Virus record (IMG/VR): IMGVR_UViG_3300043399_000272
Coordinates: 124,001-188,000 of that record
DNA: 64,000 bases
Origin: a virus
Strand: one strand, 5' to 3'
The notes beneath the pieces are model-generated. The model saw only the letters and a program-made list of their open reading frames with translations. It did not search any database and was not told where the DNA came from. The position numbers and the translations under genes are program-made. Positions 9,879 to 37,378 of this stretch are shown piece by piece. Position 1 is the first letter of the stretch. Every line of letters starts with the position of its first letter.

Positions 9879-9879
9879 A

Positions 9880-9887
9880 GATAAATA
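9880..9887 (+). promoter_or_regulatory. T4-type late promoter box
   Basis: GATAAATA matches the T4 late -10 box TATAAATA at 7 of 8 positions and ends 7 bases before the ATG at 9895. No Shine-Dalgarno sequence lies between. Confidence 0.6.
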
Positions 9888-9894
9888 AAATATT

Positions 9895-10661: not shown

Positions 10662-10669
10662 GATAAATA
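10662..10669 (+). promoter_or_regulatory. T4-type late promoter box
   Basis: GATAAATA lies 20 bases before the ATG at 10690. This one has room for a leader containing a Shine-Dalgarno-like GCGGAGC. Confidence 0.55.
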
Positions 10670-10689
10670 TTTTATTAGCGGAGCAATAA

Positions 10690-11883: not shown

Positions 11884-11891
11884 GGATTACA

Positions 11892-12848: not shown

Positions 12849-12849
12849 T

Positions 12850-13788
12850 ATGACATACAGCGCAAATAGTCTAATAGAAGCAACTGATTACAACACATTA
12901 GTTGGTGCATATAATACATTATGGGGTACGGGTTTGGGGAGTACAGGTTTAGGACAAACTACAACTCTAAGCGAAGTCCTACAAGAATCTAGTGTATTAA
13001 ACACCGAATGGAAAAATTTAGCCGCAGGCATAACTAATTTAGGTGTATTTCAGGGCAGTGTTGTAGCCTCTTTACCTGCTTTTAATAAAGGTGACTTAAT
13101 TGCCTATGTAGCTGGACTACAGACTAGTTTAACTACGTTGAATGCAAACAAGGGAAGCGCCGCAGAACAGGGGACTATGATAGTTAATTCAACTGAGACT
13201 ACTTCGTCTTGGTCAAATAGTTTAACTTTCACTCAAACTGTTACATTTGCATCCGGTGATTCTGCTCGTTACTTCTTTAATGCAGGTGGTCAAATAGTAA
13301 TACAGCCTAGTATGGTCAATAGCAATCAAGCAACTGGCTCTGTCTTTTTCAATCGTTTAGCAACACAATGTGGGTCTTGGGTAATTAGTGGTCTAGGTGG
13401 AAAGATTGTAGGTACTACCTATACACCATTTACTAAACTAGGTGGCAGATCAAACGTATCACCTAGCAACATAAACACGACTTTGGGTTATTATAATCTA
13501 ACTACAAATTATCAAGAAGCAGTTAAAATATTCAGCGATGATACATTTGGCGGCGCCTATAGTTCTGGATCATATATTAATTTAAGTATTAAAACTGATG
13601 GTCCAGATGGCATCAATAATGACAACGGTAGTACATTGACATTCAGAATAGTGTTTGATGAAGTTCCCAATGGCTTAACTGTTTCAGGAACTACAAAAGT
13701 TTCTTGCTTTGTAAAACCACCTAGAAATTTATATATTAGGAATACCTGGGGAAATATTTCTTTTGCAGGAACAGTAACCGGCAGCTAA
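12850..13788 (+). CDS. Fibre-like structural protein, tandem paralogue 2 of 3
   Basis: 312 residues, starting two bases after the previous stop. Carries QTVTFASGDSARYFFNAGGQ in the middle and FDEVPNGLTVSG plus KPPRNLYIRNTWG at the end, matching the blocks of its neighbours. The N-terminus reads MTYSANSLIEATDYNTLVGA. The trio probably arose by tandem gene duplication, and the three products may assemble together or give alternative binding specificities (inference). Confidence 0.7.
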   Translation: MTYSANSLIEATDYNTLVGAYNTLWGTGLGSTGLGQTTTLSEVLQESSVLNTEWKNLAAGITNLGVFQGSVVASLPAFNKGDLIAYVAGLQTSLTTLNANKGSAAEQGTMIVNSTETTSSWSNSLTFTQTVTFASGDSARYFFNAGGQIVIQPSMVNSNQATGSVFFNRLATQCGSWVISGLGGKIVGTTYTPFTKLGGRSNVSPSNINTTLGYYNLTTNYQEAVKIFSDDTFGGAYSSGSYINLSIKTDGPDGINNDNGSTLTFRIVFDEVPNGLTVSGTTKVSCFVKPPRNLYIRNTWGNISFAGTVTGS

Positions 13789-13791
13789 TTT

Positions 13792-14745
13792 ATGACATAC
13801 GCTAAAAACAGTAAAATTACAGCCGCTGACTACAACAGTTTGGTTTTAGATGTAAACAAAGTCTATTCAGTGGGTTTTGCTGAGACCGGTTTAGGTCAAA
13901 CTGCATTGACTCAAATCAGTGAGGGCAACACGGTTGATAATACTGAATGGGATAATCTAGGAGATACAATAACTAAAGTAGCGGCACACCAGGGCACCGC
14001 TATAACTACTATACCCTCAATAAATGAAGGTGATCTTATACAATATCTGTCATCGATAGAAAATGGCAAGAATGCAATTCTTAACAAGAATTGGAAAGCA
14101 GCAGCGCAAGGTTCTACAACTACTGTAACGACCCCGTTTTCTTCTAGTTGGAGTAATTCATTAACGTTTACACACATAATAACCTTTGCTTCAGGTGACG
14201 CTGCACGTTATTTTTTCAATGCCGGCGGACAAATCGCAATGAGCTTTCAAAAAAATGGCTCTGCACCAATGGATATAGTTTGGCAAAATTTAATATCTAA
14301 AATGGGTACATTAGTAATTAGTGCAGGTGCAAAAACAGGTAGTCCAACAGCAACTGTTGCGGGCACCGCATATACTGGATTTACGCAAATTAGTAGTTCT
14401 TCTATTAAAACCCTAGGTAGATCAGTGTACCAAACCGATTACGGATATTTTAGATTATCATCAGTTGATTCTGTTTTATATTCACAAACTGCACAAACCA
14501 CTACAGCTACTACTGGATACGGTGTTTCCTACATTAAAGTAAGTGCAAAGGCTAACGGACCTAGAGGAATTAACGGCGACAACGGTTCTACTATTACTAT
14601 CACTACAATTTGGGATGAAGTCCCCAATGGCTTAGTAGCATCTGCAGGTACGTTTACTACTGTCACTATCAGACCTCCTAGCACAGCTAACATAAATAAT
14701 ACTTGGGGAATGGTTACTGTATCTGGATTCGTTACCGGCTCATAA
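13792..14745 (+). CDS. Fibre-like structural protein, tandem paralogue 3 of 3
   Basis: 317 residues, starting three bases after the previous stop. N-terminus MTYAKNSKITAADYNSLVLD, middle HIITFASGDAARYFFNAGGQ, end WDEVPNGLVAS and RPPSTANINNTWG. Same architecture as the two genes before it. No enzymatic motif is visible. Confidence 0.7.
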   Translation: MTYAKNSKITAADYNSLVLDVNKVYSVGFAETGLGQTALTQISEGNTVDNTEWDNLGDTITKVAAHQGTAITTIPSINEGDLIQYLSSIENGKNAILNKNWKAAAQGSTTTVTTPFSSSWSNSLTFTHIITFASGDAARYFFNAGGQIAMSFQKNGSAPMDIVWQNLISKMGTLVISAGAKTGSPTATVAGTAYTGFTQISSSSIKTLGRSVYQTDYGYFRLSSVDSVLYSQTAQTTTATTGYGVSYIKVSAKANGPRGINGDNGSTITITTIWDEVPNGLVASAGTFTTVTIRPPSTANINNTWGMVTVSGFVTGS

Positions 14746-14767
14746 AATTTTCACCCAACACTTCTTC

Positions 14768-14775
14768 AGTAAATA
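14768..14775 (+). promoter_or_regulatory. Late-promoter-like box abutting the start codon
   Basis: AGTAAATA ends 5 bases before the ATG at 14781. No Shine-Dalgarno is present, so this belongs to the set of box-ATG arrangements that imply leaderless late mRNA. Confidence 0.45.
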
Positions 14776-14780
14776 TTCAG

Positions 14781-15086
14781 ATGAATACTGAAGATTTGAT
14801 AAAAGAAGCCAAAGCCAGGTTTCATCACAACTACCAAAAAATACAATTATCACAAAAATACAATAGTAAATTGTTGTTCGCCTCTCAGGGCGGACTTTGG
14901 GCAGCAGGCCCAGAATTATTTGGAACACTACATTGTCTAACATCAGATGAAGTTGTGTTATTAGATAACTATAAAAATCCAGTGAAAATAAAACGAGATG
15001 AATTGCGTGTAAAAGCAATCGAAGTTTATGAAGCTGTCATGCGAGAGTGGCATGCTGAATATGAGTCATTGAAGAATAATAGATGA
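14781..15086 (+). CDS. Conserved-looking hypothetical protein, 101 aa
   Basis: The ATG at 14781, just after a late-promoter-like box, is preferred over an in-frame upstream start at 14703 that would overlap the preceding gene. The N-terminal half is helical and charged (EDLIKEAKARFHHNYQKIQL), followed by a compact FASQGGLWAAGPELFGTLHC segment and a helical end. It could be a small assembly factor or fibre chaperone because of its position after the fibre genes, but no family was recognised. It overlaps the next gene by four bases (ATGA). Confidence 0.65.
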   Translation: MNTEDLIKEAKARFHHNYQKIQLSQKYNSKLLFASQGGLWAAGPELFGTLHCLTSDEVVLLDNYKNPVKIKRDELRVKAIEVYEAVMREWHAEYESLKNNR

Positions 15087-15862
15087 AGGGCGTTCTCCTT
15101 TTTGCATTTAATAGTCCTACCGTAGACTATTTTAGTTTAGCTGTATATACTGCAAAACGAGCCAATCGATTTTTGGGCTTACCTGTATCGGTAGTTACAG
15201 ATAAAAATACTGATTTATCACTGTATGACTATAAGTTTGATAACGTGTTTTTAGTTAGCTCAGACTCTACCAATACAAAGAATAAAGACATTTGGATAAA
15301 CAAAGGTAGATACCAAGCATATGACCTTTCCCCATATGATGAAACGTTACTAATTGATGTAGATTACCTAATAAACTCTGACAGACTATTAACTATATTT
15401 GATATATACGATGATTTCATGTGTCCCAAAGAAGCATCATATGTTTTGTATGAAAATCAACCAGATGAAATGTTAAGTCAAAAATCACATCAGTCGTTGT
15501 GGGCTACTGTCATTGCTTTTAAGAAAACTAAAAAAGTAAAACAAATTTTTGAATGCATGAAAATGGTTCAAGAAAACTATAGCTACTATGTACAGCTACA
15601 TAATATTTTAGGATACACGTACAGAAATGATTTTGCATTAACAATTGCATTGAATATTGTTAATGGTCAAACAGAAAATTCTGTAAATTATCTGCCTTGG
15701 GATTTGCTTCACGTGACAAAGGATGTAAAAATTCTTAGAAAAACAGATACATCTTATGTTGCAATAGAAGATATGACCGATAAAAAGCGTTATTGTATGT
15801 TGAACGATACTGACTTTCATTGCCTAAATAAAGATACTTTCATTGGACTAATTAATGAATAA
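15083..15862 (+). CDS. Glycosyltransferase-like protein (GT-A type)
   Basis: 259 residues. Starts KGVLLFAFNSPTVDYFSLAV, as expected for a GT-A Rossmann first strand, and has LLIDVDYLI at ~91-99, a DxD-type metal/nucleotide-sugar motif. No membrane segment, so likely cytoplasmic. The next gene has the same overall form and the two overlap by 8 bases. Together they open a gene cluster with carbamoyltransferase and radical SAM enzymes, consistent with building or modifying a glycan. Donor and acceptor cannot be told. Confidence 0.65.
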   Translation: MKGVLLFAFNSPTVDYFSLAVYTAKRANRFLGLPVSVVTDKNTDLSLYDYKFDNVFLVSSDSTNTKNKDIWINKGRYQAYDLSPYDETLLIDVDYLINSDRLLTIFDIYDDFMCPKEASYVLYENQPDEMLSQKSHQSLWATVIAFKKTKKVKQIFECMKMVQENYSYYVQLHNILGYTYRNDFALTIALNIVNGQTENSVNYLPWDLLHVTKDVKILRKTDTSYVAIEDMTDKKRYCMLNDTDFHCLNKDTFIGLINE

Positions 15863-16667
15863 AGGATTTGTAATCTTAGCCCAAAATACAATTAGCACTA
15901 ACTACGTTGAATGTGCTGAGGCTTTAGCCTATTCGATTAAAACAGTAATGCCTAACGTAAGTGTTACTTTAATATCTAACGAGCATGTTACTTCTACTGT
16001 GTTTGATAATATAGTTTCATTACCTCACGGTGATACTGTACCTAACTCTGAATGGAAACTAAGCAATGACTGGCAAGTGTACGAAGCAAGCCCCTACGAA
16101 TACACTATCAAACTGGAAGCTGACATGTATATTCCTGCGAATATTGAATACTGGTTTGATATATTAAAAGATAGAGATATAAACGTATCTTCGACTATAC
16201 GTGATTACAAAAATCAACAGTCTAACGTGAGAGTATACCGACAATTCATTGATGATAACAAACTACCCGATGTTTATAACGCCATCACGTACTTTCGTAA
16301 ATCAGATATTGCTAAACAATTCTTTTCAATTGTAAGAGATGTGTTTGAAAATTGGGACAAGTACAAAGAAATATTTGTATGTAACGCTGATGAAACCGCG
16401 ACTACAGATTGGGCATATAGTATAGCATGCCATATTTTAGGTGTAGAAAACACGACAATGCCTCGCTTCACAGAGTTCAGCATGATTCACATGAAGCAAT
16501 ACATTAACAACTTGATGACCGAAGACTGGACAAATGAATTAGTCTATGAGTTCACTAAACCATTAAGAATTCACACGTTTACTCCTAATTACCCAGTTCA
16601 TTATCATATTAAATCATTTGGGAAAAAATTAAAGGACAATTATGACAGAAATGCGTCTTTACTATGA
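15855..16667 (+). CDS. Glycosyltransferase-like protein, second copy
   Basis: 270 residues. The N-terminus KGFVILAQNTISTNYVECAE and the later KLEADMYI (an ExD-like version of the DxD motif) resemble the gene before it, indicating a diverged paralogue or a related nucleotide-sugar enzyme. ETATTDWAYSIACHILG may line the acceptor site. Overlaps both neighbours. The substrate is unknown. Confidence 0.6.
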   Translation: MNKGFVILAQNTISTNYVECAEALAYSIKTVMPNVSVTLISNEHVTSTVFDNIVSLPHGDTVPNSEWKLSNDWQVYEASPYEYTIKLEADMYIPANIEYWFDILKDRDINVSSTIRDYKNQQSNVRVYRQFIDDNKLPDVYNAITYFRKSDIAKQFFSIVRDVFENWDKYKEIFVCNADETATTDWAYSIACHILGVENTTMPRFTEFSMIHMKQYINNLMTEDWTNELVYEFTKPLRIHTFTPNYPVHYHIKSFGKKLKDNYDRNASLL

Positions 16668-16941
16668 TGACAACGGTAACGTTTTGTATTATACTTGTGA
16701 TAAACCTGAGGGTAATTTTATTGTCATTGATAAAGATGTTTATGCCGAATGCAGATTTGACATAAAAGTAGTAGACGGTAAGATAGTCAAACTACAAGAT
16801 AGCATTGTTGTTGAAAAAATGACAATTGATCCTGATGGTACTTTGTGTAGCAGTGACGACATTAATATTATAGTCGATAGTAGCTACACTGGTAAAACAA
16901 CCAAGTGGAAATTAAAACAATATGAGTTCAAAAATAATTGA
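16642..16941 (+). CDS. Small hypothetical protein, 99 aa
   Basis: Starts inside the end of the upstream gene after AAAGGAC (a usable Shine-Dalgarno) and overlaps the next gene by 20 bases. Beta-rich, with the start MRLYYDDNGNVLYYTCDKPE and alternating Val/Ile/Asp, resembling the short beta proteins encoded beside fibres. No family recognised. Tight packing between glycosyltransferase-like genes argues that it is real and co-expressed. Confidence 0.6.
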   Translation: MTEMRLYYDDNGNVLYYTCDKPEGNFIVIDKDVYAECRFDIKVVDGKIVKLQDSIVVEKMTIDPDGTLCSSDDINIIVDSSYTGKTTKWKLKQYEFKNN

Positions 16942-17869
16942 TATAGCAGATTTAGATTGTATCTATCTAAGCTACGATGAACCGCAGAAAGAAGAATTTT
17001 GGCTTAAAATCAAAAACATGATTCCATGGGCACGTAGAGTAGACGGTGTGAAAGGATCAGATGCCGCACACAAAGCAGCAGCCGAAGAAAGTTTTACAGA
17101 TAGATTCATTCTTATTGACGGTGATAACTTACCGGATATGGAGTTTTTCAACTTAGCGTTAGACTTCACTAACAAAGACCCTATATATGAACAAGCACAA
17201 TATAGATGGAGAGCAAAGAATCACATTAATGGTTTACGTTACGGTAACGGTGGTATTAGTTCATGGACAAAAGAATACGTCATGAACATGAAAACTCACG
17301 AAGCTAGTAACGGAGATAGTACAACGACAGTTGACTTTTGCTTAGACTATCAGAACAGTATATATTGGGCAATGCATGATTGTTATTCAACAACCTATCC
17401 TAATTACACACCATTTCAAGCATGGCGAGCCGGATTCCGTGAAGGTGTTAAGATGTGTTTAGTGGGAGGTAATGTTCCTGAAATAAATGATTTCAAACGC
17501 AATGTTGCAAGTAGAAATATGAACAATCTAACAATATGGCATAATGTAGGAGCTGACGTTGAAAATGGTTTATGGGCTATTTACGGAGCTAGATTAGGCA
17601 CATACTTAACGATGTTGCAAGATTGGGATGTTAACAAAGTACAATGGTTTGATAACTTTACTGAACTATGGGACCGATATGGCAATGTAGATCCACTAGA
17701 ACAGTCTGATATTATCGGTGAAAAATTAAAAGACAAACTTGGATTACCGATGTGTGTATTGTCACCAGAACAGTCTATTTTCTTCAAAAGACACTATAAT
17801 GCCGATAAGTATAATCTCGGACCATTAGTAAGAGAAATCGATGTTATTAGAAAGATTGAGGGTTGGTAA
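16922..17869 (+). CDS. Glycosyltransferase-like domain protein, paralogous to the end of the 777-aa repeat protein
   Basis: 315 residues. RFILIDGDNLPD is a GT-A-like DxD region. AQYRWRAKNHINGLRYGNGG, FQAWRAGFREGVKM and LTIWHNVGAD...GLWAIYGARLGTY correspond to RRHYIFRATNPVNGLEYGHQ, YRTAFRECIKL and LNIWLTIANGDFAQYSLLGA in the last ~250 residues of the protein at 25631-27964, so the two share a domain. Likely cytoplasmic. The next gene starts by TAATG overlap. The reaction is unknown. Confidence 0.6.
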   Translation: MSSKIIDIADLDCIYLSYDEPQKEEFWLKIKNMIPWARRVDGVKGSDAAHKAAAEESFTDRFILIDGDNLPDMEFFNLALDFTNKDPIYEQAQYRWRAKNHINGLRYGNGGISSWTKEYVMNMKTHEASNGDSTTTVDFCLDYQNSIYWAMHDCYSTTYPNYTPFQAWRAGFREGVKMCLVGGNVPEINDFKRNVASRNMNNLTIWHNVGADVENGLWAIYGARLGTYLTMLQDWDVNKVQWFDNFTELWDRYGNVDPLEQSDIIGEKLKDKLGLPMCVLSPEQSIFFKRHYNADKYNLGPLVREIDVIRKIEGW

Positions 17870-19251
17870 TGACAAAGAACCTAAATCAAATGAACATAGA
17901 AAATATGTTGACCAGAATGACTGAGATAGAGAGCAAACTTGGCAGCAAAACTGTATGTACTGCAAAATGGTTACAAAGTACAATTTATCTAATGAACGGG
18001 TTTACTCACAGTTGTCACCACCCCAGCACACATAAAATACCTATTAGCGAAATAAAAAGAAGTCCTAGCGCACTACACAACACGGAATATAAAAAACAAG
18101 TTCGCGGCAAAATGCTCAACGGTGAACAACCGGATGAATGCAGATATTGCTGGAATATCGAAAACTTGGGTACCGGTAACATAAGTGATAGGACGTACAA
18201 GAGTGCAAACGTTGAATGGAGTTACTCGTTTTTAGATAGAGTTATAGATACACAAGACACAGGAGATGTAGACCCTACCTATCTTGAAGTTGCTTTTGAT
18301 AACACTTGTAATTTTAAATGCATGTATTGTACTCCTGACATTAGCAGCAAATGGATGGAAGAAATAGAACAGCATGGCCCATATTCAGTTGGGGTAGGTA
18401 ATATTGAATGGTTGCAACTTTCTGGAAAGATGCCAATTCCTCAAAGAGAATATAATCCATACGTTGACGCATTTCACGAATGGTTTCCTAAAGTTAAAGA
18501 AAACTTAACCAATTTTAGAATTACTGGTGGTGAGCCACTGTTGAGCAAAAACATGTGGCGCACATTAGACGAATTACTAAAAGAACCTAACCCTAATTTG
18601 ACGTTGGGCATTAATAGTAATATGGATGTTCCTGACAATTTAATCGATAAGTTAATTCAGTATATTCATGAACTGAAGAAAAATGTTAAACAAGTCGAAA
18701 TTTATACTAGTTGCGAAGCACACGGTGAGCAAGCTGAATATATTCGTTATGGTATGAAGTATGAACGTTTTATGGAAAACGTCAATAAGATTTTGACACA
18801 AACTGACACCCGAGTTAATTTTATGGTTACATTCAATGCATTGAGTATAACTAGCTTTACTAAGTTTTTAAGTGACATGTATGATTTGCGAGTAAAATAT
18901 AACGAAAATGATAGTATCAATCGAATTCCATTAATGATTAGTTACTTGCGTTGGCCACAGTTCCAAGATGTTAGAGTATTGCCTAATGAAATTAAACAGC
19001 GTTACATTGATGAAATCATAACTTTTATGAAACAACGGGATCGTAACAACAGTAGCAACCGTGCTGGGAGATTTTATTTGGAAGAAATAGATCAAGCCGA
19101 AAGATTGAAAAATTTTATGTATACTGATCCGGATAATATAGATACGTTGCGTGAACAATTTAGAAGTTTCTATAAAGAATATGATTCCAGAAAAAACACA
19201 AACTTTATAAAAACTTTCCCAGAATTAAAAGATTTTTACTTAGGATTATAA
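17869..19251 (+). CDS. Radical SAM enzyme with N-terminal cysteine module, copy 1 of 4
   Basis: 460 residues. The ATG at 17869 overlaps the previous stop by one base and is preferred to a TTG at 17863. The canonical cluster motif CNFKCMYC (~147-154) binds the 4Fe-4S that cleaves SAM, and ITGGEPLL (~218-225) is the SAM-contacting GGE motif. Upstream of it an extra cysteine module (CTAKW, SCHHP, ECRYCW, residues ~28-100) resembles the N-terminal twitch arrangement named for such phage proteins; in most SPASM/twitch enzymes the auxiliary cluster is C-terminal. First of four consecutive radical SAM genes. Substrate unknown. Confidence 0.85.
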   Translation: MTKNLNQMNIENMLTRMTEIESKLGSKTVCTAKWLQSTIYLMNGFTHSCHHPSTHKIPISEIKRSPSALHNTEYKKQVRGKMLNGEQPDECRYCWNIENLGTGNISDRTYKSANVEWSYSFLDRVIDTQDTGDVDPTYLEVAFDNTCNFKCMYCTPDISSKWMEEIEQHGPYSVGVGNIEWLQLSGKMPIPQREYNPYVDAFHEWFPKVKENLTNFRITGGEPLLSKNMWRTLDELLKEPNPNLTLGINSNMDVPDNLIDKLIQYIHELKKNVKQVEIYTSCEAHGEQAEYIRYGMKYERFMENVNKILTQTDTRVNFMVTFNALSITSFTKFLSDMYDLRVKYNENDSINRIPLMISYLRWPQFQDVRVLPNEIKQRYIDEIITFMKQRDRNNSSNRAGRFYLEEIDQAERLKNFMYTDPDNIDTLREQFRSFYKEYDSRKNTNFIKTFPELKDFYLGL

Positions 19252-20771
19252 TGCCAAAGAAGCCAGAAGAAACATACCAACAATATAGAGATAGAGTAAT
19301 CAACTCTATAAGCCCTAGCTTCTGCGGAGCTAAGTGGTACAATGCTACTATATGGTTAGGATCTGGAACAACTGCTAGTTGCCATCATCCACCTGCACAC
19401 AAAATTCCTATTGAAGAAATTAAGAGAAACTACAAAGCACTTCATAATACAGAATATAAAAAACTCGTTAGAGAACAGATGCTCAGAGGTGAAAGACCCA
19501 CAGAGTGTGATTACTGCTGGCGTATTGAGGATTTGGGCGACGATAAAGTTAGCGATAGAGTTTACAAATCAATTATATATTCTGATGACAAGTTAATAAA
19601 AGCAAAAGACATATTTGGTAGTAAATTAGATGTTGATTTGGAAACACTAGAAATTGCGTTTGATGCTAATTGTAACTTTGCATGTAGCTATTGCAATCCT
19701 AGTTTCAGCACAACATGGATGAGTGATGTTAAAGTCAATGGCCCTTATCAGAATTTAGTTAGTGACGGTGGCGGTGCGTACCAACAAGACGGTAGCTGGG
19801 CACAACCGTATGGATTAAAGAATGAAGGTAATCCATACATTGAAGCATTTTGGAAATGGTGGGAAAGCGACCTACAACATTCACTAAAAGAATTGAGAAT
19901 TACAGGTGGCGAAGCCACTATGAGTCAAGACTTTTGGAAGTTGCTAGATTGGTGGAACGAACATCCAGAGTGCCAGGTAAGTTTAGCCATTAACAGCAAC
20001 TTGGGAACAGTTACACAATTAACAGAAAGATTGTGCAAAGCTACCCATAGTCATAAAAACTTCCATTTATATACAAGTAACGAAGCACACGGAAAACATG
20101 CCGAATACATTCGTGACGGATTGAACTATGAAAATTGGTTAAAGAATCTAACATACATGATAGAAAATGGTAACTGCAAAGGTACGCATGTTATGATGAC
20201 TATTAATAGTCTTTGTTTGTTTAGCATTACTGATTTTATGGATGACATGATTAAACTCAAGAAAAAGTATGGAAGGAATCATGCTATGATGAGTTTTAAC
20301 ATTCTACGTTTCCCTAGTTTTATGAGTGCAGTTACATTACCTGAATCTATATGCAGAGCACAAGCTGATAAATTGGAAACATGGGTTAAAGATAAAACTG
20401 ACCTACACCAAATGGAGCGTGACGGAATCGCTAGACTAATTGCATATCTTAGAGAAGTACGTGAGGGTCACAGCCATACATCAAGTATTGAAAGTAGAGA
20501 ACGTGACTTTAAAACTTTCTTTATGCAATATGACACTAGAAGAAAGAAAAACTTTTTAGCAACATTTCCTGAATTAACTGAGTGGTATAACAATATACCT
20601 ATCACTAAACTAGAACCACTTAAAGAGTTCAAAGACGGTGATAGTACAAAGGGCTGGTCTCATGTGCAATTAGAGTTAGTCAAAAGAGCAAATGACGAAA
20701 AGTGGATATTAAAACCTAGTAATGTAAATCCAGGTGGAGAAAACTATGAGCGACCAAAAGAAGGTATCTGA
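19251..20771 (+). CDS. Radical SAM enzyme with N-terminal cysteine module, copy 2 of 4
   Basis: 506 residues, the longest of the four. Cluster motif CNFACSYC at ~141-148; N-terminal module FCGAKW, SCHHPPAHKIP, ECDYCWRIED. The SAM motif is GGEAT, not GGEPL, so the usual proline is replaced by alanine. Closest to the gene before it (same HKIP-EEIKR-ALHNTEYKK stretch), so the pair is a recent tandem duplication. The C-terminus has an extra ~50-residue tail (NIPITKLEPLKEF onward) absent from copy 1. Starts by TAATG overlap with copy 1. Confidence 0.85.
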   Translation: MPKKPEETYQQYRDRVINSISPSFCGAKWYNATIWLGSGTTASCHHPPAHKIPIEEIKRNYKALHNTEYKKLVREQMLRGERPTECDYCWRIEDLGDDKVSDRVYKSIIYSDDKLIKAKDIFGSKLDVDLETLEIAFDANCNFACSYCNPSFSTTWMSDVKVNGPYQNLVSDGGGAYQQDGSWAQPYGLKNEGNPYIEAFWKWWESDLQHSLKELRITGGEATMSQDFWKLLDWWNEHPECQVSLAINSNLGTVTQLTERLCKATHSHKNFHLYTSNEAHGKHAEYIRDGLNYENWLKNLTYMIENGNCKGTHVMMTINSLCLFSITDFMDDMIKLKKKYGRNHAMMSFNILRFPSFMSAVTLPESICRAQADKLETWVKDKTDLHQMERDGIARLIAYLREVREGHSHTSSIESRERDFKTFFMQYDTRRKKNFLATFPELTEWYNNIPITKLEPLKEFKDGDSTKGWSHVQLELVKRANDEKWILKPSNVNPGGENYERPKEGI

Positions 20772-22062
20772 CTATTTTTGTGTCGCGCCTTGGACTCATA
20801 CTTATCTAAGTCCCCAAAGTGAACGTAGATTGTGTTGTGCTAGTAGAGAAACTGCTAGTTTTCAAAAACAGTACATCGATAGCGGTGACAAATATAATGA
20901 ATACAGCCCCGTAACACTGGAAGAACACTGGAATAGTGAACACATGAAAAGTGTTCGCCGCCGTATATTGAATGGAGAAAGTATCCCAGAATGTCAAGTT
21001 TGCAATAATAACTTATTGAATCTATACACATATCGTCAATATTTTACTAACAATCTTTTCCCACATAAAGTTGATGAAATATTATCATCCACTGATGAAA
21101 CTGGTTATACTACAATGAAACCAATTTCATTTGATTATCGCATTTACAATCTATGTAATTTTAAGTGCAGAATGTGCGGAGAACAGCTATCTAGTTCATG
21201 GGAAACCGAAAAGCGTAAAATGAATATGTGGTCACCTACACATGACCGATGGATGCTTCCTGAAAATAAAGCTAAAATAGAAAACTTTCAACAAACTGTT
21301 GCTGAAAATGAGTTGTGGGAAGCGGTAAAGAACGGAACAATAGAAGAAATTTACTGGGTCGGTGGAGAACCATTAATGTACGAGATTCATTGGGACATAA
21401 TGAAATATCTTGTAGAAAATGATTTAGCAAAAAATGTAGTTGTTAGATATAATACCAACCTTAGTAAAACTTCATTTAAAGGTGTAGAGTTATATGATTT
21501 ACTACCGCACTTTAAGAAAGTAAACATCTGTGCTAGTATGGATGCCACCGGAGAAGTTGCAGAATATATTAGAACAGGCCTTGATTGGGATATTTGGTTA
21601 GATAACTTTAAACGCGGAATCTTTTTAAACGACATTTATGGCATGGATGCAATGGTATTAGATGTTACACTAACATTGCCCGGTTTGTTAGATATGAAAA
21701 ATTTAATTGATTTAGCAGTTGAATTAAAAGTTAAAAGTTATGTAAAGATATGTTTTGACTTTACCCCTAGCGCAATAATGAGTCCTATGTGTGTACCTAG
21801 AAATATATTAAATCCGATATTGGACGATTTAATAGAATACGAACAGACACATGGAAATGAATTCACTAAAATATATAAAGAAACTTTCAACGATATGAAG
21901 ACCAGACCGAACTTTAGTGACAAGTATCCTGATATTAATAAAGGGCTATCTGACGGTAAACATAGATATATTCGGATTGATGAATATAGAAAAGAAAAAG
22001 ATTTATTATTGAATATTTTAAGTCGGAATAAAGAATTATCAGATTGGTATAAAAATATATGA
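20746..22062 (+). CDS. Radical SAM enzyme with N-terminal cysteine module, copy 3 of 4
   Basis: 438 residues from the ATG at 20746, which follows AGGTGGAG at a good distance; a GTG four codons upstream is possible. N-terminal module FCVAPWTHTYLSPQSERRLCC then ECQVCNN; cluster motif CNFKCRMC (~138-145) after RIYNL; SAM motif VGGEPLMYE. Belongs with copy 4 as a second subgroup (xPW-H start), distinct from copies 1-2. Overlaps both neighbours. Probably acts on a peptide or nucleotide-linked substrate in the same pathway (inference). Confidence 0.85.
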   Translation: MSDQKKVSDYFCVAPWTHTYLSPQSERRLCCASRETASFQKQYIDSGDKYNEYSPVTLEEHWNSEHMKSVRRRILNGESIPECQVCNNNLLNLYTYRQYFTNNLFPHKVDEILSSTDETGYTTMKPISFDYRIYNLCNFKCRMCGEQLSSSWETEKRKMNMWSPTHDRWMLPENKAKIENFQQTVAENELWEAVKNGTIEEIYWVGGEPLMYEIHWDIMKYLVENDLAKNVVVRYNTNLSKTSFKGVELYDLLPHFKKVNICASMDATGEVAEYIRTGLDWDIWLDNFKRGIFLNDIYGMDAMVLDVTLTLPGLLDMKNLIDLAVELKVKSYVKICFDFTPSAIMSPMCVPRNILNPILDDLIEYEQTHGNEFTKIYKETFNDMKTRPNFSDKYPDINKGLSDGKHRYIRIDEYRKEKDLLLNILSRNKELSDWYKNI

Positions 22063-23213
22063 GTAAGACATTTTGTCCATTACCTTGGATGCATTTAGCG
22101 ACACATCCTGAGGGTAAAGCTACATTATGCTGTGTGAGCGACCATACTAACAACATGTCTGTTGCAAGAACCAACGGTAAAGTTTTAAATCTTAACAGAA
22201 ATAAAGTAATTGAAATAATGAACAGCGATTATTATGTTGAGGTCAGAAATCAGATGCGTCAGGGCATTAAGCCAAAATCTTGTTTGAGATGTTACAATGA
22301 AGAAGATATGGGCATTGTTAGTAAACGAGAATTAGAAACTTCCAGATTTGGCACTGATTACAGAGATAATAATGGTATAATAGATCCTAATCTAAAGTTT
22401 ATTGAGTTGCGCCTGGGCAATTTATGTAATGTTAAATGTAGAACCTGTAACCCTGCATCTAGCACTCAATGGATTACTGAGTATAACAAACTACAAAATG
22501 AATTATCTTTTGTCACACACTATGATAGTAAGATTAATACAGATTGGACACAATCAGATCAATTTTGGGAAGATTTATTAGAAAACAGTAAAGACGTTGA
22601 GCTAATATATATCAACGGTGGAGAACCAACATTAGTAGAAAAACACTGGAATTATTTAGAAAGATTAATTGATAAAGGACTGAATAAACAAGTTAAATTG
22701 TGGTACAGTATTAACATGACAAATGTACCTGACAAACTAATTAACATTTGGAAACAATTCAAAGAAGTAGAAGTTCATGGCAGTGTAGATGATCTTGGCC
22801 AGCGCAATAGTTACATACGAAAAGGAACTAAATGGGAAGATGTTGAGAAAAGTCTAAAAAAAATAAAAGAAAATGATTGGATAAAATTTAGTGTCACTCA
22901 AACAGTAAGTTGGATGAACATCTATTACGTAGATGAATTCAAAAAATACTTTGATAATTTGAATATACCAACACAAACAAATCTGGTTTATGATCCTAAA
23001 TTTTATAGTATATGCATCCTACCAGAACATATCAAATACCAATTACAGGATAAGATATCTAACTTTGGTAATTTGTTAAATCAAGTTTCTACTGACATAA
23101 ATACAGAGTTATTTAATCAGGGGATGATATACAATAAATGGTTGGACACCCATCGAAATGAAAGATTTTCTGAAATATTTACTGAATGGTCCGCTGTACT
23201 TGGATACAAATGA
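22059..23213 (+). CDS. Radical SAM enzyme with N-terminal cysteine module, copy 4 of 4
   Basis: 384 residues, the shortest copy, starting by ATGA overlap. N-terminal module FCPLPWMHLATHPEGKATLC then SCLRCYNEED; cluster motif CNVKCRTC at ~123-130; SAM motif INGGEPTLVEKHW. The region after it, WYSINMTNVPDKLI and EVHGSVDDLGQRNSYIRKG, aligns with the corresponding part of copies 1-3 (ASMDATGEVAEYIRTG), confirming one family. No signal peptide. Confidence 0.85.
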   Translation: MSKTFCPLPWMHLATHPEGKATLCCVSDHTNNMSVARTNGKVLNLNRNKVIEIMNSDYYVEVRNQMRQGIKPKSCLRCYNEEDMGIVSKRELETSRFGTDYRDNNGIIDPNLKFIELRLGNLCNVKCRTCNPASSTQWITEYNKLQNELSFVTHYDSKINTDWTQSDQFWEDLLENSKDVELIYINGGEPTLVEKHWNYLERLIDKGLNKQVKLWYSINMTNVPDKLINIWKQFKEVEVHGSVDDLGQRNSYIRKGTKWEDVEKSLKKIKENDWIKFSVTQTVSWMNIYYVDEFKKYFDNLNIPTQTNLVYDPKFYSICILPEHIKYQLQDKISNFGNLLNQVSTDINTELFNQGMIYNKWLDTHRNERFSEIFTEWSAVLGYK

Positions 23214-23214
23214 A

Positions 23215-24054
23215 ATGAGTTATTTACTAACATCACCGTTCGGGAATGAACACTCGATAAATAAAAGTTTCGCTCATACTGATATTAAAAGTAATTTTAA
23301 TACAAACAAATTGTTGTTTGGTCCGGAATGGATTTGGTCTACCATTCCTATAAATTACAATCACAATTCTCATGGTTATAGAATGGACAAGGAGTTAGAT
23401 GAAGTAGATTTATCTAACTATATTGCCTTTTTTGGATGTAGTTTTACAGTAGGTATTGGTTTACCGTTAACATATACATTTGCATATAAATCAGCAAATC
23501 AGTTAAATGTAGACTATGTTAATGGCGCTGTAAGCGGATCTTCCTGTGACTATGCATTTCATAATATTGTGAAATTAATTTCAACTGCGAAGATAAAACC
23601 GAAAGCAATTATTATAAATTGGCCAGAGATAACTAGAACTTTTTATTGGAAAAACAATACCATGGAATTTTATCTAGTAAACGCAGATTTAGGCTCATAT
23701 TATTGGAAAAATGCATATAGAGCATTTCTTATGGAAGAATCACATCTGTATAATAGATTTGAATTTATCCGATCTACTGTAAAACTGTTATGTAGCGCAT
23801 TTAATATTAGACTTTTTGAATTTACTACATATCAATCGGATTTAAAAACTTTTTTAAAAAAATATCCTGACATTGGATTTACACATATAGTAGATCAAGA
23901 GAATAAACTAGATCCAACTTCTGTGGAATATTTAAATAATTTTAGTGCCAGGGACGTTTTGACAAAAAATGGCAGTCATTATGGTTATCATCCGGGAATA
24001 TACTTTCATAATCAGGCAACAAAACAGATAGTAGAGTGGTTTAACAATGTTTAA
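23215..24054 (+). CDS. SGNH/GDSL-like hydrolase
   Basis: 279 residues from the ATG at 23215, one base after the previous stop; an in-frame ATG at 23158 would add 19 residues and overlap the radical SAM gene. FFGCSFTVGIGL fits SGNH block I (nucleophile Ser in GxSxT-like context), VNGAVSGSSCDYAFHN fits block II (Gly), INWPE sits where the block III Asn is expected, and SHYGYHPG near the end could supply the catalytic His. Such enzymes add or remove acyl groups on glycans, which suits the neighbouring glycosyltransferase and carbamoyltransferase genes. Substrate unknown. Confidence 0.6.
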   Translation: MSYLLTSPFGNEHSINKSFAHTDIKSNFNTNKLLFGPEWIWSTIPINYNHNSHGYRMDKELDEVDLSNYIAFFGCSFTVGIGLPLTYTFAYKSANQLNVDYVNGAVSGSSCDYAFHNIVKLISTAKIKPKAIIINWPEITRTFYWKNNTMEFYLVNADLGSYYWKNAYRAFLMEESHLYNRFEFIRSTVKLLCSAFNIRLFEFTTYQSDLKTFLKKYPDIGFTHIVDQENKLDPTSVEYLNNFSARDVLTKNGSHYGYHPGIYFHNQATKQIVEWFNNV

Positions 24055-24148
24055 TTTTTTTAAAAAAATCTTTTGTAAGGTAATATTTGATATTAGATAT
24101 CGTAAAAGAATCAAAAAGCTAAAGAAAGCAGATCCGTTTATTTACTAA
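24047..24148 (+). CDS. 33-residue basic small protein
   Basis: Overlaps the previous gene by 8 bases and ends two bases before the carbamoyltransferase start, so it is probably coupled to both. A Phe-rich hydrophobic start (MFNFFKKIFCKVIFD) leads into a basic stretch (RYRKRIKKLKKADPFIY). This could be an amphipathic membrane-surface peptide or a small partner of the next enzyme. No family assigned. Confidence 0.5.
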   Translation: MFNFFKKIFCKVIFDIRYRKRIKKLKKADPFIY

Positions 24149-24149
24149 T

Positions 24150-25631
24150 ATGAATTATATTGGAATATCATCAGGGTTTCACGATGCATCCGTAACTGTT
24201 CTTAAAGACGGACAAATTCTATTTGCGGGTCACAGTGAACGTTATAGTAAAATAAAAAATGACAAGAATTTAGACGTTGACCTCATCAAAGATGCATTAA
24301 GTTATATTGATGGCCCGCACGAATTGCATTATTATGAAAAACCCTGGTTAAAGGTTTTGCGTCAATGGTACGCTGGACAAAAAACTCATTGGTCTAATAT
24401 ATTTACTAGCAATGTGATCGGTAAGAGTTATCACGAAATGTTAGGGAAAAAGACTATTCATACACACAGTCATCATTTAAGCCATGCTGCTGCAGGGTTT
24501 CAAACTAGCCCATTTAATGAAGCAACTATTGTCGTTATTGATGCTATCGGTGAGTTTGATACTGTAACTATTTGGAGTGCTCATTATGATTATAATCACA
24601 ATGCGGTATACAAAAAACTTTATACAAAACGCTATCCAAATAGTATCGGTCTTTTCTATAGCGCAGTTACTAAGCGTGTAGGGTTGAGACCCAATGATGA
24701 AGAATACATCACTATGGGAATGTCTGCTTATGGTTCACCTGTAGTTATAAGTGAGTTATGTTCTGAAGTTTTTGATGACTTAAATGAATTAAAATTTAGA
24801 AAAAATTTACATATAGGGTTTGACGAAGATTTCTTACCAAATGCAAAAGATGAAGATATTGCCCGCTCAGCACAAGATATAGTCGAACACTCAATAATGA
24901 ATATTATGCAAAAAGCTAGAACATTGAGTGAAAGCAATAATCTTGTCTATGCAGGTGGTGTAGCATTAAATTGTTTAGCTAATCGTTTGATTGGAAAATA
25001 TTTCTCTAACCTTTGGATAATGCCCAATCCAGGTGATGCTGGCTCTAGTTTAGGAGCAGCATGTTTAGGTTACAGAAAAAAAGTAGAATTTAATTCAGCT
25101 TTCTTGGGTCACGAAATTCAAGGTGAATATCCAGTTCATAATATCTTGCAAGGATTGTTGACAGACAAGATAGTAGGTGTTGCTAGTGGTAAGGCTGAGT
25201 TCGGCCCCAGAGCATTTGGTAATAGAAGTTTATTAGCAGATCCTAGAAGTAAAGACATAAAAGATCAGGTAAACGAAATTAAGCGCAGACAGAAGTTCAG
25301 ACCTTTCGCACCTGTTATATTAGAAGAACATGCACCTAACTATTTCATTATGCCATTAAATTGGAAGAATTCACGTTATATGCAAGTTGTTGCTAAGTGC
25401 AAGAATCCTGAACGATTCCCTGCAATCGTGCATGTAGATGGCACTAGCAGAGTGCAAACTGTTCCTAAAGACGGATCAGGAATTCGTAAGCTATTAGAAG
25501 AATGGCATAAAAAGACTGGGTGCCCAATGTTATTGAACACTAGTTTAAACATTCGAGGCGAACCAATGGTTAATGATCGGGCAGATGCGGATAGATTTGA
25601 ACAGCTATATAATGTTAAAGTCTATAGTTAA
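24150..25631 (+). CDS. Carbamoyltransferase (NodU/CmcH family)
   Basis: 493 residues. The N-terminal domain has GISSGFHDASV (5-15) and HHLSHAAAGF (~108), the His residues that bind metal and carbamoyl-adenylate in the family, plus VYAGGVALNCLANR and NPGDAGSSLGAA. The C-terminal YrdC-like part has AEFGPRAFGNRSLLADPRS and RPFAPVI. The family transfers carbamoyl from carbamoyl phosphate to hydroxyls of sugars or antibiotics. Length is slightly short of bacterial NodU (~550-600). With the glycosyltransferase-like and SGNH genes it points to O-carbamoylation of a phage or host glycan (inference). One-base overlap with the next gene. Confidence 0.88.
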   Translation: MNYIGISSGFHDASVTVLKDGQILFAGHSERYSKIKNDKNLDVDLIKDALSYIDGPHELHYYEKPWLKVLRQWYAGQKTHWSNIFTSNVIGKSYHEMLGKKTIHTHSHHLSHAAAGFQTSPFNEATIVVIDAIGEFDTVTIWSAHYDYNHNAVYKKLYTKRYPNSIGLFYSAVTKRVGLRPNDEEYITMGMSAYGSPVVISELCSEVFDDLNELKFRKNLHIGFDEDFLPNAKDEDIARSAQDIVEHSIMNIMQKARTLSESNNLVYAGGVALNCLANRLIGKYFSNLWIMPNPGDAGSSLGAACLGYRKKVEFNSAFLGHEIQGEYPVHNILQGLLTDKIVGVASGKAEFGPRAFGNRSLLADPRSKDIKDQVNEIKRRQKFRPFAPVILEEHAPNYFIMPLNWKNSRYMQVVAKCKNPERFPAIVHVDGTSRVQTVPKDGSGIRKLLEEWHKKTGCPMLLNTSLNIRGEPMVNDRADADRFEQLYNVKVYS

Positions 25632-30130: not shown

Positions 30131-30155
30131 CAACACTCAAAAATAAATATACAAT
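30127..30155 (+). promoter_or_regulatory. Sigma70 promoter of the tmRNA gene
   Basis: TTGACA at 30127-30132, 17-base spacer, TACAAT at 30150-30155. The predicted start, 30161-30163, falls at the first bases of the tmRNA acceptor piece. The spacer also contains an ATAAATA late-type box (30142-30149). Confidence 0.75.
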
Positions 30156-30159
30156 GTGA

Positions 30160-30475
30160 GTTATTGCTGTATGAAGCAAAGAGAAAAGTGTTCTGGACCC
30201 GGGTTCGACTCCCGGCATCTCCACCATAAGCACACTAGTTGGGACAAAACGGTTAGATGTTTCCTCGCAAGACGAACTCTAAGCGCCCATCTAGTTAGTG
30301 TGTTTATGATGGGGATGACTTTGGTTTTCGACAGGGCAAAGAGTAACAGAGTGGACAGCACATCAGCAACGATGTAAAAAGAAGAAAATCTATAACTGCA
30401 AACGCAGCCAATGATGAGGTATTTGCCCTAGCGGCATAATCTCTGGGGGAACTATCCCTTATAACCCAAAATAGT
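30160..30475 (+). ncRNA. ssrA: Circularly permuted two-piece tmRNA (SsrA)
   Basis: The acceptor piece comes first: T-arm CCGGG-TTCGACT-CCCGG (30199-30215), acceptor strand CATCTCC and ACCA (30216-30226). An intervening segment (30227-30310) has ends that pair over 11 bp (TAAGCACACTA with TAGTGTGTTTA). The coding piece then starts GGGGATG (30311-30317), which pairs with CATCTCC to complete a 7-bp acceptor stem with one G-U. The tag frame at 30398-30439 encodes ANAANDEVFALAA and a stop. ACAGCA (30355) can pair with TGCTGT (30165) to join the pieces. Permuted tmRNAs are known in alphaproteobacteria, cyanobacteria and some betaproteobacteria. The tag ending resembles betaproteobacterial tags. Role: ribosome rescue and proteolytic tagging. 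Confidence 0.88.
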
Positions 30476-30499
30476 AATAGGGACTCAGTCCCTATTTTT
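30476..30499 (+). terminator. Terminator after the tmRNA coding piece
   Basis: Perfect 9-bp stem AATAGGGAC / GTCCCTATT with a TCA loop, then T residues. The last codons of the opposite-strand HNH gene (stop at 30492-30494) lie inside the hairpin. Confidence 0.75.
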
Positions 30500-31118
30500 C
30501 TGGATATTGCCAAGTCCAAGACCCGTCCTCTCTATATAATCTCGTTCTGCCCTTAACCTTAGTAGATAATTTAGCGGCACCTTTTCTAGCATTTTCGGCA
30601 GCCTGAGGATTTGAAAGCCCTTTATTCCAACTACTTACTCTTGGATTTTTAATTACAAGTCTCTTGCCAATATTATTTCTAGCAGTATTTCTTGCGGCAC
30701 AAGATTGACTGCAAAAAGGCTTTTCTCGTAACGGATGATGACAAAATTCTAACTTACTAAAAATCTTTGAACACTCTAAACATAAATATTGCCTACTTTC
30801 TTTTGGTTTAGTTTTTGTTCTTTTATTTTGAACAGAAAGTAATTTTGAATGTTCTAACCTTGCTCTTTCGTAATATCTGTTGGTATAGTTCTTTTTTCTA
30901 CCCATTAGATTTACAGCATGCCATTGGGTTCCTCCGTAGATTTTTGCCAAAAGAATGTGTGCTACATAATGTTCTCTGGCTGTTAAATTAACAAGATTAT
31001 CCGGGTCACCAGTCCCGCCCATAGATTTAGGAATAATATGATGGGCTTCTTTGTATCCCTCTAACAATCTTTCTTTTGCTCTTTCTATTAACAAATTATA
31101 GTGTTTGGTGTAGTTCAT
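30492..31118 (-). CDS. HNH homing endonuclease inserted in the tmRNA locus
   Basis: 208 residues. EAHHIIPKSMGGTGDPDNLV (~22-41) is the catalytic HNH core, with NLTAREHYVAHILLAK completing it. Cysteine pairs (CLECSK, FCSQSC) suggest a zinc finger, and the Lys/Arg-rich end (RNNIGKR..., KGLSNPQAAENARKG) looks like a NUMOD-type DNA-binding part. It lies on the opposite strand between the functional tmRNA tag and a second tag end, as expected for a mobile gene that entered the tmRNA coding region. It is one of only two genes here that stop with TAG. A late box (CATAAATA, minus strand, 31124-31131) precedes its ATG. Confidence 0.85.
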   Translation of the reverse strand: MNYTKHYNLLIERAKERLLEGYKEAHHIIPKSMGGTGDPDNLVNLTAREHYVAHILLAKIYGGTQWHAVNLMGRKKNYTNRYYERARLEHSKLLSVQNKRTKTKPKESRQYLCLECSKIFSKLEFCHHPLREKPFCSQSCAARNTARNNIGKRLVIKNPRVSSWNKGLSNPQAAENARKGAAKLSTKVKGRTRLYREDGSWTWQYPEK

Positions 31119-35684: not shown

Positions 35685-36203
35685 ATGACACAATGGGTAG
35701 ACGCATTAAAAGAACAAAGTATCCCTGATTATGCAAAGGATACAAAGTTAAATATGGACGCAGTTATCAAGCGTTCAGCACTTCCCGTAGAAGAGGCAGA
35801 AGCGGTTGCATTAGCAGCAGCATTTGCAACAGGCAATAGCAAACTATGGACTTGGATGGAAAGTCAGATTGCTAACAAGACTGAGACACATGCAGCACTT
35901 ACAGCGGCAGCATTGATGGCACAAAACAACGTTTGGTATCCGTTTGTTGAAATGGCTGATGACGAAAATCTAAAAGGTCTTCCTGCTCAATTACGTATGA
36001 ATGCTATTAGTACAAGCGGTGGTACAACTAAAGAACGTTTTGAAGCATATAGCTTGGCAGCAAGTATTGTTGGTAAGTGCCACTTCTGTGTAAAAGCACA
36101 TTATGAAGGACTAAAGAAAATGGGCTATACAGTAGAACAACTACGTGATATAGGTCGCATTGCAAGTGTCATTAACTCAGTATCTAAAGTAGTAGCAAAC
36201 TAA
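35685..36203 (+). CDS. ahpD: AhpD-like alkylhydroperoxidase (carboxymuconolactone decarboxylase fold)
   Basis: 172 residues, all helical. GKCHFCVKAHYEGLKKMGY (~131-149) carries the CxxC pair plus His of the AhpD proton relay, and an upstream Glu could complete it. Probably reduces AhpC or acts directly on peroxides. Close to ahpC (1.2 kb) with matching context; the length matches bacterial AhpD (~175). Cytoplasmic. Confidence 0.85.
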   Translation: MTQWVDALKEQSIPDYAKDTKLNMDAVIKRSALPVEEAEAVALAAAFATGNSKLWTWMESQIANKTETHAALTAAALMAQNNVWYPFVEMADDENLKGLPAQLRMNAISTSGGTTKERFEAYSLAASIVGKCHFCVKAHYEGLKKMGYTVEQLRDIGRIASVINSVSKVVAN

Positions 36204-36204
36204 T

Positions 36205-36612
36205 ATGGCAAGTCTAGCTGAATATTTTGAGAAGAACCGTCCTCAACCTTATTTTGAGTTCGGTACACGTGTGTTCGGTAAATGGAATAAGATTCCTTTT
36301 GTTGGCACAGTATACGGGGATGGTATGATCAATGAAGAAGACGGCCCACGCCTAACAATTCATCTAGACTTGCCCATTAAAGTTGATAACACAGTTAAAA
36401 CAATTATAATTGATACGTATGACAAATTTAAGGGTCTAGTAGAATTATCAGACCCGGATGCGCCCGTAGCTGATCGGAAAGCAAGAGCCTCTAAAACTCA
36501 AGGTAGTGGGTTCGACTCCCACCGAGCGCACCAAACAAAACCTAAAGCTAAGGAGAAATCTAAGTCAACTTCTCTATTAGAGAATTTGAAAAAGCTCAGG
36601 GAAAAGAAATAA
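36205..36612 (+). CDS. Hypothetical protein with a tRNA gene inside its reading frame
   Basis: 135 residues. The first ~80 (MASLAEYFEKNRPQPYFEFG, FGKWNKIPFVGTVYGDGMI, LTIHLDLPI) form a compact beta domain of a type I recall as short phage proteins. At codon 86 the frame enters a tRNA-like sequence (36460-36533) and reads through it without a stop, then continues into a basic helical tail (KPKAKEKSK..., LLENLKKLREKK). Either a tRNA was inserted in frame or the tail is a chance extension. The ending overlaps a late promoter box. Confidence 0.6.
   Translation: MASLAEYFEKNRPQPYFEFGTRVFGKWNKIPFVGTVYGDGMINEEDGPRLTIHLDLPIKVDNTVKTIIIDTYDKFKGLVELSDPDAPVADRKARASKTQGSGFDSHRAHQTKPKAKEKSKSTSLLENLKKLREKK
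36460..36533 (+). tRNA. tRNA-like gene, anticodon CUA (candidate amber suppressor)
   Basis: Acceptor stem GCGCCCG / CGAGCGC (6 of 7 pairs, one C-A) with encoded ACCA; D-arm GCT-GATCGGAA-AGC; T-arm GTGGG-TTCGACT-CCCAC perfect. The anticodon arm is weaker (3 of 5 pairs, C-A and A-A mismatches) with loop CTCTAAA: U33, anticodon CTA, A37. The body resembles proteobacterial tRNA-Arg (GCGCCCGTAGCT...GCGCACCA). Would read UAG. A nine-base-loop reading could instead place UCU, but then U33 is lost. It may be a pseudo-tRNA. Confidence 0.6.
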
Positions 36613-36615
36613 ATA
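36608..36615 (+). promoter_or_regulatory. Late promoter box abutting the start codon
   Basis: AATAAATA ends five bases before the ATG at 36621 and overlaps the stop of the previous gene; no Shine-Dalgarno. Confidence 0.55.
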
Positions 36616-36620
36616 TCTGT

Positions 36621-36773
36621 ATGATTAAGTTACCTTTTATAGGATTAATGGGAGTAGGAAGCGATAACATGCTTTATACTCCTAATGGCGAAGCTCTATT
36701 CAGAGCGCCCGAATGGGCAGCGTGGCGCATCCAGCGCATTCAACATTGGATTGCACAAAAAACTTGGAGATAA
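36621..36773 (+). CDS. 50-residue hypothetical protein
   Basis: MIKLPFIGLMGVGSDNMLYT start with a short hydrophobic segment, then APEWAAWRIQRIQHWIAQKT, a Trp-rich amphipathic helix. Placed directly after a late promoter box, and ends two bases before the ATG of the amber-containing gene. No family recognised. Confidence 0.55.
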   Translation: MIKLPFIGLMGVGSDNMLYTPNGEALFRAPEWAAWRIQRIQHWIAQKTWR

Positions 36774-36775
36774 AA

Positions 36776-37378
36776 ATGGCATAGATTGAATTTGATTGTA
36801 AAGACATAGTGTTTCACTTCAACAAGAAACACCTAGAAGATCAGACCATTCCCATGTGGGTCTTAAAATTTCATGGTGAAACATATTATGTGAATCATGT
36901 GGAATGCAATGTTCCATGGTCTACTAAAGAGACTCCTGACAATTCACATACTAAAGGCTCTATTAAAGTCAGAGACTGTTTGTTACAGATTGCCGATAAC
37001 AACGAAGCCAAAATATCACCCATCACAGAAATTGACAAAGCACGAATCCGTAATACCAAAAAAGGTATCACCCGCGTTACAGTTAGTGAGCGTAACTGGG
37101 GAGGACAAAAGTTGCGTAAGTTGTTACGAGAAAAGAAAATCAAGCATGGCCCTATCAAAACTATAGGTGGCGCATGTACAACATCTTTCCATATCACTGA
37201 TATTTTTAACGAACAGGATGTAACTTATCTTGCGTTAATGTTGTCTGATACTGACTTTAGAAAACTCATGCCTAATGAAGGATACTACAGGATGTACGAT
37301 GACCCAAAGTATCAAGGGACCGGCGATATCGATTTGGATGCTGAGGACTGGTCCGATGATGACGAGAACGACCAATAA
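36776..37378 (+). CDS. Hypothetical phage protein with an in-frame UAG at codon 3
   Basis: The frame reads ATG GCA TAG ATT GAA TTT GAT TGT AAA and then stays open for ~200 codons. GGAGA (36766-36770) lies five bases before this ATG, while the next possible start (GTG 36809) has no Shine-Dalgarno. Translation from ATG needs UAG readthrough, and a tRNA-like gene with anticodon CUA lies 243 bases upstream. The body (HFNKKHLEDQTIPMWVLKFH, TPDNSHTKGSIKV) looks like a conserved cytoplasmic phage protein with a very acidic end (DIDLDAEDWSDDDEND). Function unknown. An assembly error at one base would be the simple alternative. Confidence 0.65.

Follow-up and report, generated by a model that had tools for sequence, protein, structure and literature searches.

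In prfB (RF2), an early in-frame UGA ties expression to the balance between termination and decoding by means of +1 frameshifting. In stop-recoded phages using code 15, such as crAss-like and Lak phages, a phage-encoded suppressor tRNA with the anticodon CUA decodes UAG as a sense codon and may thereby act as a time switch (PMC9523058, PMC10879173, PMC6784885). An engineered 'leak dampener' combines an amber codon right after the start codon with a co-controlled suppressor tRNA to give an AND gate, and it also works with an opal codon and a UCA tRNA (PMC7969014). Finally, single orphan CUA or UCA suppressor tRNAs with no known target have been described in the standard-code jumbo phages XacN1 (PMC5852040), RsoM2USA (PMC8504454), Atu_ph07 (PMC6102473), and AP-J-162 (PMC11242549), and the authors of the XacN1 study sought a target and found none (PMC5852040). 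The locus described here resembles those of crAss-like and Lak phages in that a phage-encoded CUA suppressor tRNA would read UAG, but while code-15 phages have many genes with UAG and are more densely coding under code 15, here essentially one gene or operon appears to be gated near its start. With prfB it has the early in-frame stop in common, with a suppressor tRNA in place of frameshifting. The design is that of the synthetic 'leak dampener', but this one occurs naturally, is conserved across many phages, and has target families of its own; and whereas the suppressor tRNAs of jumbo phages were orphans, here we identify candidate targets, namely genes of a family that we call FHFNK and genes resembling peptidyl-tRNA hydrolase 2 (PTH2). 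A literature search with incomplete coverage found no published case in which a dedicated phage suppressor tRNA accompanies a start-proximal stop conserved in a single gene, and we regard the novelty of the arrangement as provisional.

The window, i.e. the whole stretch of 64,000 nucleotides that was analysed, spans bases 124001-188000 of a viral record that is 260,148 bp long and belongs to a large phage; positions are those of the window unless the record is named. The FHFNK gene (36776-37378, + strand) has 200 codons including the UAG and encodes a two-domain protein. It begins with ATG (36776-36778) and GCA, followed by the gate, an in-frame TAG at codon 3 (36782-36784, + strand) with A as the next base, after which the frame is open for 197 codons and ends with TAA (37376-37378). 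A Shine-Dalgarno sequence, GGAG (36766-36769, + strand), lies 6 nt 5' of the ATG, so that reading of the sequence bears out the ATG with Shine-Dalgarno and the TAG at codon 3 that an earlier note had described. The same note had proposed a CUA tRNA gene upstream, and this candidate was confirmed by a single ARAGORN call at 36460-36533 (+ strand) and by Rfam RF00005 (54.3 bits against a cut-off of 29). The gene encodes a class I tRNA with U33-CUA-A37, discriminator A73, and an encoded CCA, in other words a suppressor tRNA with a cloverleaf and an anticodon complementary to the stop codon, and 242 nt separate its end from the ATG of the gated gene. tRNA searches of the record placed some 46 tRNA genes in a cluster near one end, and this is the only one found outside it; the cluster lies on the minus strand (L003 and L004, record bases 8642-24649).

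Comparison of 107 distinct homologous CUA tRNAs revealed covariation in the acceptor, T, and anticodon stems, with pairing kept through changed pairs, which argues for a maintained tRNA fold. G1-C72 and C2-G71 predominate in this set and A73 is present in 85 of the 107; positions 31 and 39 form a Watson-Crick pair in just 30%, and this low share might limit efficiency. The suggestion of the earlier note that the identity elements resemble tRNA-Arg was not upheld: D-loop position 20, which in tRNA-Arg is A, takes all four bases among the relatives as judged by eye, and the closest tRNA in the same genome, tRNA-Arg ACG, is a weak match. ARAGORN labels the CUA tRNA 'Pyl' from the anticodon only. 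Although the pyrrolysine system shares a CUA anticodon read in single genes, tRNA-Pyl needs one base between the acceptor and D stems and has no canonical T-loop, while the tRNA described here has two bases (TA), a canonical TTCGA T-loop, and canonical D and T arms, so that its body is not that of a pyrrolysine tRNA.

A 135-aa ORF with a weak Glyoxalase_8-like match (36205-36612, + strand) contains the whole tRNA gene in frame. Its relatives without the tRNA end at ~79 aa, and in the window, L042, L043, L034, and L035 the ORF reads through the tRNA to a conserved Lys-rich tail ..SLLENLKKLKGKK; judged from these sequences, 36205-36612 is dual-coding DNA that would specify both a tRNA and a protein. 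Between the tRNA and the gated gene lies a 50-aa ORF (36621-36773, + strand), the 3' end of which overlaps the Shine-Dalgarno sequence of the gated gene, and a similar peptide precedes the gene in L029 and L030. A consensus scan identified a promoter-like TTGATA-16-TATAAT (36383-36410, + strand) ~50 nt 5' of the tRNA, and consensus matching revealed no forward-strand terminator-like site between this site and the gated gene. The window also contains a permuted (two-piece) tmRNA of betaproteobacterial type (30134-30530) with the tag ANAANDEVFALAA, and a phage tmRNA is likewise found near the gated gene in several relatives.

Scans of IMG/VR gave 24 close relatives and then ~376 in all, the best of which were retrieved. 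An in-frame TAG occupies the same site, shortly before the conserved FHFNK core, in 109 of 115 distinct homologues. Gated members may be over-represented in this set, as the homologue patterns were drawn from them, although these patterns leave out the stop. None of the 115 has TAA or TGA at the site. Clustering of the core at 90% identity gave 54 clusters, and in five the representative lacks TAG. The earlier note had pointed out that AAG or CAG at 36782-36784 would speak against a real stop; the relatives have neither but TAG, including a near-identical separate contig (L017) with the in-frame TAG at the same place. The ATG before the TAG usually has a Shine-Dalgarno sequence. The TAG is codon 3 in 71/108 homologues and ranges from codon 2 to codon 10, and the preceding residues vary (MA, MS, MK, ML, MSQQ, MTQQ, MSNEKIPRI). 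Because both the residues before the TAG and its codon number vary, it is the stop that is conserved and not the surrounding peptide.

Several features of these sequences suggest that the frame beyond the stop is translated from the ATG. In the nine codons between the TAG and the core, pN/pS is 0.095 (432 pairs), compared with 0.033 in the core, indicating that the codons after the TAG are under strong purifying selection. The codon directly after the TAG is not a conserved start (ATT, ATC, ACT, AAA, AAT, AAC, GTT, GTA, or GTC), and homologues do not begin at the later GTG at 36809, which is the start chosen by the gene caller and is replaced by GTC, GTA, or GTT in relatives. Of 108 homologues, 104 have A and four have G directly after the TAG, whereas A occupies the same position in 46% of this phage's other genes. 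A purine after UAG, and especially A, favours suppression over termination. Moreover, a CUA tRNA is present in the retrieved flanking DNA of 86/114 FHFNK loci, in all 86 on the strand of the gene, 83 times upstream and three times directly downstream, the latter arrangement being that of Rhizobium phage RHph_I1_18, in which the FHFNK gene has the TAG. In most of the remaining records searched, a CUA-tRNA-like sequence is found elsewhere; some TAG-bearing contigs show no CUA tRNA, and as several of these are fragments, its absence means little. As a separate observation, GIY-YIG-endonuclease-like ORFs upstream of the gated gene in L114 (~3328) and L232 (~3118) start with MA*IEYS, as though they had acquired the beginning of the gated gene.

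A second family, PTH2-like genes of the peptidyl-tRNA hydrolase superfamily, is gated independently in cultured jumbo phages. GAP32, CBB, XbC2, BF, ME3, and Arash have TAG at codon 3 or 4 of this gene, and RaK2, XacN1, RAS14, Munch, and phiM12 have no early stop. The CUA tRNA lies ~0.4 kb upstream in ME3 (annotated 'tRNA-OTHER anticodon CTA'), ~1 kb downstream in Arash (annotated tRNA-Phe), and 3-4 kb downstream in GAP32, CBB, and BF. Because the XacN1 PTH2 gene lacks an early stop, we assign no target to the CUA tRNAs of this phage; XacN1 (AP018399) has two identical tandem CUA tRNA-like sequences per terminal repeat (36079-36191 and 354874-354986). Among 38 distinct PTH2-like loci from IMG/VR, 32 have an N-proximal TAG. 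Two others (L356 and L357, near 4001-4300) lack an N-terminal stop; their in-frame TAG lies near codon 35, within a domain loop. L343 (~3728-4030) has TGA at codon 4, with a class I UCA tRNA, labelled tRNA-SeC by ARAGORN, ~200 nt upstream. L349 (~3970-4030, on the same contig as L310) has an in-frame TAA at codon 6, and no UUA tRNA was found in this 33-kb fragment. The gate state of L364 is ambiguous, and L334 (~3940-4000) has no in-frame early stop and its only good ATG in another frame, pointing to a frameshift or an assembly error. Against Pfam PF01981 (cut-off 23), gated PTH2-like proteins score 15.9-27.8 bits, which is weak and mostly below the cut-off, and one is unmatched; of the ungated members, RaK2 scores 27.2 and XacN1 116.2 bits. 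Profile comparison with hhalign detected no homology between the FHFNK and PTH2-like families. The two families are largely alternatives, in that records with one mostly lack the other.

The FHFNK homologues without TAG are exceptions that largely bear out the pattern. Four of them are unfused (L122, L194, L218, and L223); in L194, L218, and L223 the start codon is at or beside the place of the TAG, and L122 starts close by. In three of the four (L122, L194, and L223), the adjacent upstream gene is PTH2-like and has TAG at codon 3. In L218, the CUA tRNA directly precedes the ungated FHFNK gene and no other gated gene was found in its 8-kb locus; this case and the TAA of L349 are not fully explained by a gate. 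In the Sinorhizobium phage Phosso and the Agrobacterium phage Atu_ph07, the FHFNK domain has no stop and follows another protein in a fusion, and in both a PTH2-like gene lies two genes upstream. In Phosso this gene has TAG at codon 4, and 4.6 kb upstream the same strand carries a CUA tRNA. In Atu_ph07 it has TGA at codon 7, and the single suppressor tRNA of this phage has the anticodon UCA (PMC6102473), so that stop and anticodon match in each. The GenBank starts of both PTH2-like genes fall downstream of the stop. Because the stop is variably spaced from both the ATG and the core, can reside in the upstream PTH2-like gene or in the middle of a gene, and can be UGA accompanied by a UCA tRNA, we conclude that the gate belongs to the module and not to one residue.

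A confident AlphaFold2 model of the FHFNK protein (pLDDT 86) has two domains: residues 4-82 form a beta domain, and the other is an alpha/beta domain whose matches are ferredoxin-like or ACT-like. Searches of Pfam, PHROGs, NCBIfam, and PDB gave no significant match from which to assign a family or function, and Foldseek found no significant match of the model to solved structures in the PDB; the sole fold match is an uncharacterised phage protein in BFVD. No relatives were found in GTDB genomes. Based on the operon link to PTH2-like genes, the protein is likely connected with translation or tRNA, and we would guess that this link points to the rescue of peptidyl-tRNA, tRNA, or ribosomes.

Taken together, the comparison strongly supports the earlier proposal, in which the neighbouring tRNA would decode the UAG as an amino acid and thereby serve as a switch, based on the conserved TAG, the coding constraint after it, the same-strand CUA tRNA, and the occurrence of other stops with the matching suppressor anticodon. 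We put at roughly 0.8 the probability that this phage, which otherwise follows the standard code, gates a single gene with a nonsense codon and opens the gate with a dedicated suppressor tRNA of its own. In the mechanism that we propose, a phage tRNA with the anticodon CUA would be made from a gene 5' of its target on the same strand, and the target mRNA would have a good ribosome-binding site and ATG but UAG at codon 3. As long as the tRNA is absent, unprocessed, or uncharged, release factor 1 (RF1) would release a product of two residues; as the charged suppressor tRNA builds up, it would compete with RF1, UAG would specify an amino acid, and the full protein would be made. Because mRNA and tRNA would both be required and are both phage-derived, the circuit would constitute an AND gate, i.e. 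a coherent feed-forward loop that is tightly off and switches on with a delay. By comparison, the sequences themselves show the conserved stop, the coding constraint behind it, the tRNA fold, the linkage of tRNA and gene, and the matching of stop and anticodon. For this mechanism we infer charging of the tRNA, readthrough in vivo and its level, its timing, and its regulatory purpose or benefit, as we do the function of the protein. Because the pair of stop and tRNA has been kept in well over 100 related virus sequences, the gate has the appearance of a purposeful on-switch and not of an error.

A start-proximal UAG could be put to other uses. One that we consider unlikely, but would still take seriously, is a sensor of drop-off or termination, in which AUG-x-UAG minigenes would yield dipeptidyl-tRNA or load RF1. 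The gate would then follow the turnover of peptidyl-tRNA or the activity of RF1, in a feedback with the PTH2-like protein and with readthrough as the output. Minigenes with such effects exist, lambda bar minigenes causing peptidyl-tRNA drop-off, and the predominance of codon 3 as well as the presence of gated PTH2-like genes in an operon with the FHFNK gene agree with a sensor; gates at codons 4-10 and near codon 35 do not, nor does the weak match of the gated proteins to Pfam PTH2. Reinitiation near a stop also occurs in bacteria, and since the ORF before the TAG is short and has a Shine-Dalgarno sequence, ATG-x-TAG might be a tiny uORF for leader-peptide control, with the protein made by reinitiation at or after the UAG and the tRNA a bystander. 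This is improbable because the post-TAG codon is variable and the GTG is not conserved as a start, the nine post-TAG codons are conserved as protein, the TAG of L356 and L357 lies in the middle of the PTH2-like domain, and the linked CUA tRNA and the TGA with its UCA tRNA would be left unexplained. It is very improbable that the tRNA inserts one particular residue whose chemistry the protein needs, and that the UAG is kept for this and not for control: a single position is kept and A73, G1-C72, and C2-G71 are strongly conserved, as such a need would predict, but relative to the core the TAG is displaced by one to three codons, three unfused homologues have their start codon at or next to the site, and the stop can be found in another gene or in the middle of a gene, or can be UGA together with another tRNA.

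The two remaining explanations deny that the stop is special to this gene or real. Were the genetic code of the phage or its host altered genome-wide, with UAG as sense (code 15), the FHFNK gene would be merely one case, and the rarity of TAG as a stop (9/236 ORFs of at least 100 aa) is in line with this; but TAG still ends some genes, and reading through TAG raises coding density only from 85.2% to 87.5%, less than the control readthrough of TGA (90.1%) or TAA (92.6%). We therefore rejected a code-15 phage, regard a genome-wide altered code as extremely improbable, and conclude from the sequence that the phage otherwise appears to use the standard code. Nor was a further 5' amber without a good alternative start found in the genome, except for one candidate: of three other 5' amber candidates, those at record 18680-19240 and 218245-218541 were rejected as an ATG with a strong Shine-Dalgarno sequence lies downstream, and the third (record 22209-22595) overlaps a tRNA-like sequence. 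The HNH endonuclease gene among the tRNA genes (record 18680-19240; L003:18580-19300) ends in TAG, and two related phages have similar sequence over the next 13 codons; as the post-TAG stretch is an inverted repeat, we did not take this as readthrough. A crude all-frame search for conserved TAG returned only shadow-frame noise. Finally, although a sequencing error or a decaying gene would look alike if an early stop were seen in a single contig, the same stop in 109/115 distinct sequences and the purifying selection on the codons downstream make the probability of either negligible.

Extending the nonsense gate opened by a dedicated suppressor tRNA beyond the window, we think it likely that standard-code jumbo phages carry a natural AND gate in which such a tRNA opens a conserved start-proximal stop in one small operon, and in which evolution preserves the gate but swaps the stop (UAG, UGA, perhaps UAA), the gene (FHFNK or PTH2-like), and the position. 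Suppressor tRNAs outside recoded phages previously had no known target; candidate targets are now available in phages in culture, and gated genes could be tested by growing GAP32, CBB, BF, ME3, Arash, Phosso, and RHph_I1_18. Standard gene callers truncate or miss genes gated by a stop. The findings also raise the question of why a peptidyl-tRNA-hydrolase-like gene sits under a termination-dependent lock. If the proposed gate is true, it would explain the orphan suppressor tRNAs in many standard-code phages and would represent natural gene control by codon meaning, the counterpart of a circuit that has so far been engineered (PMC7969014).
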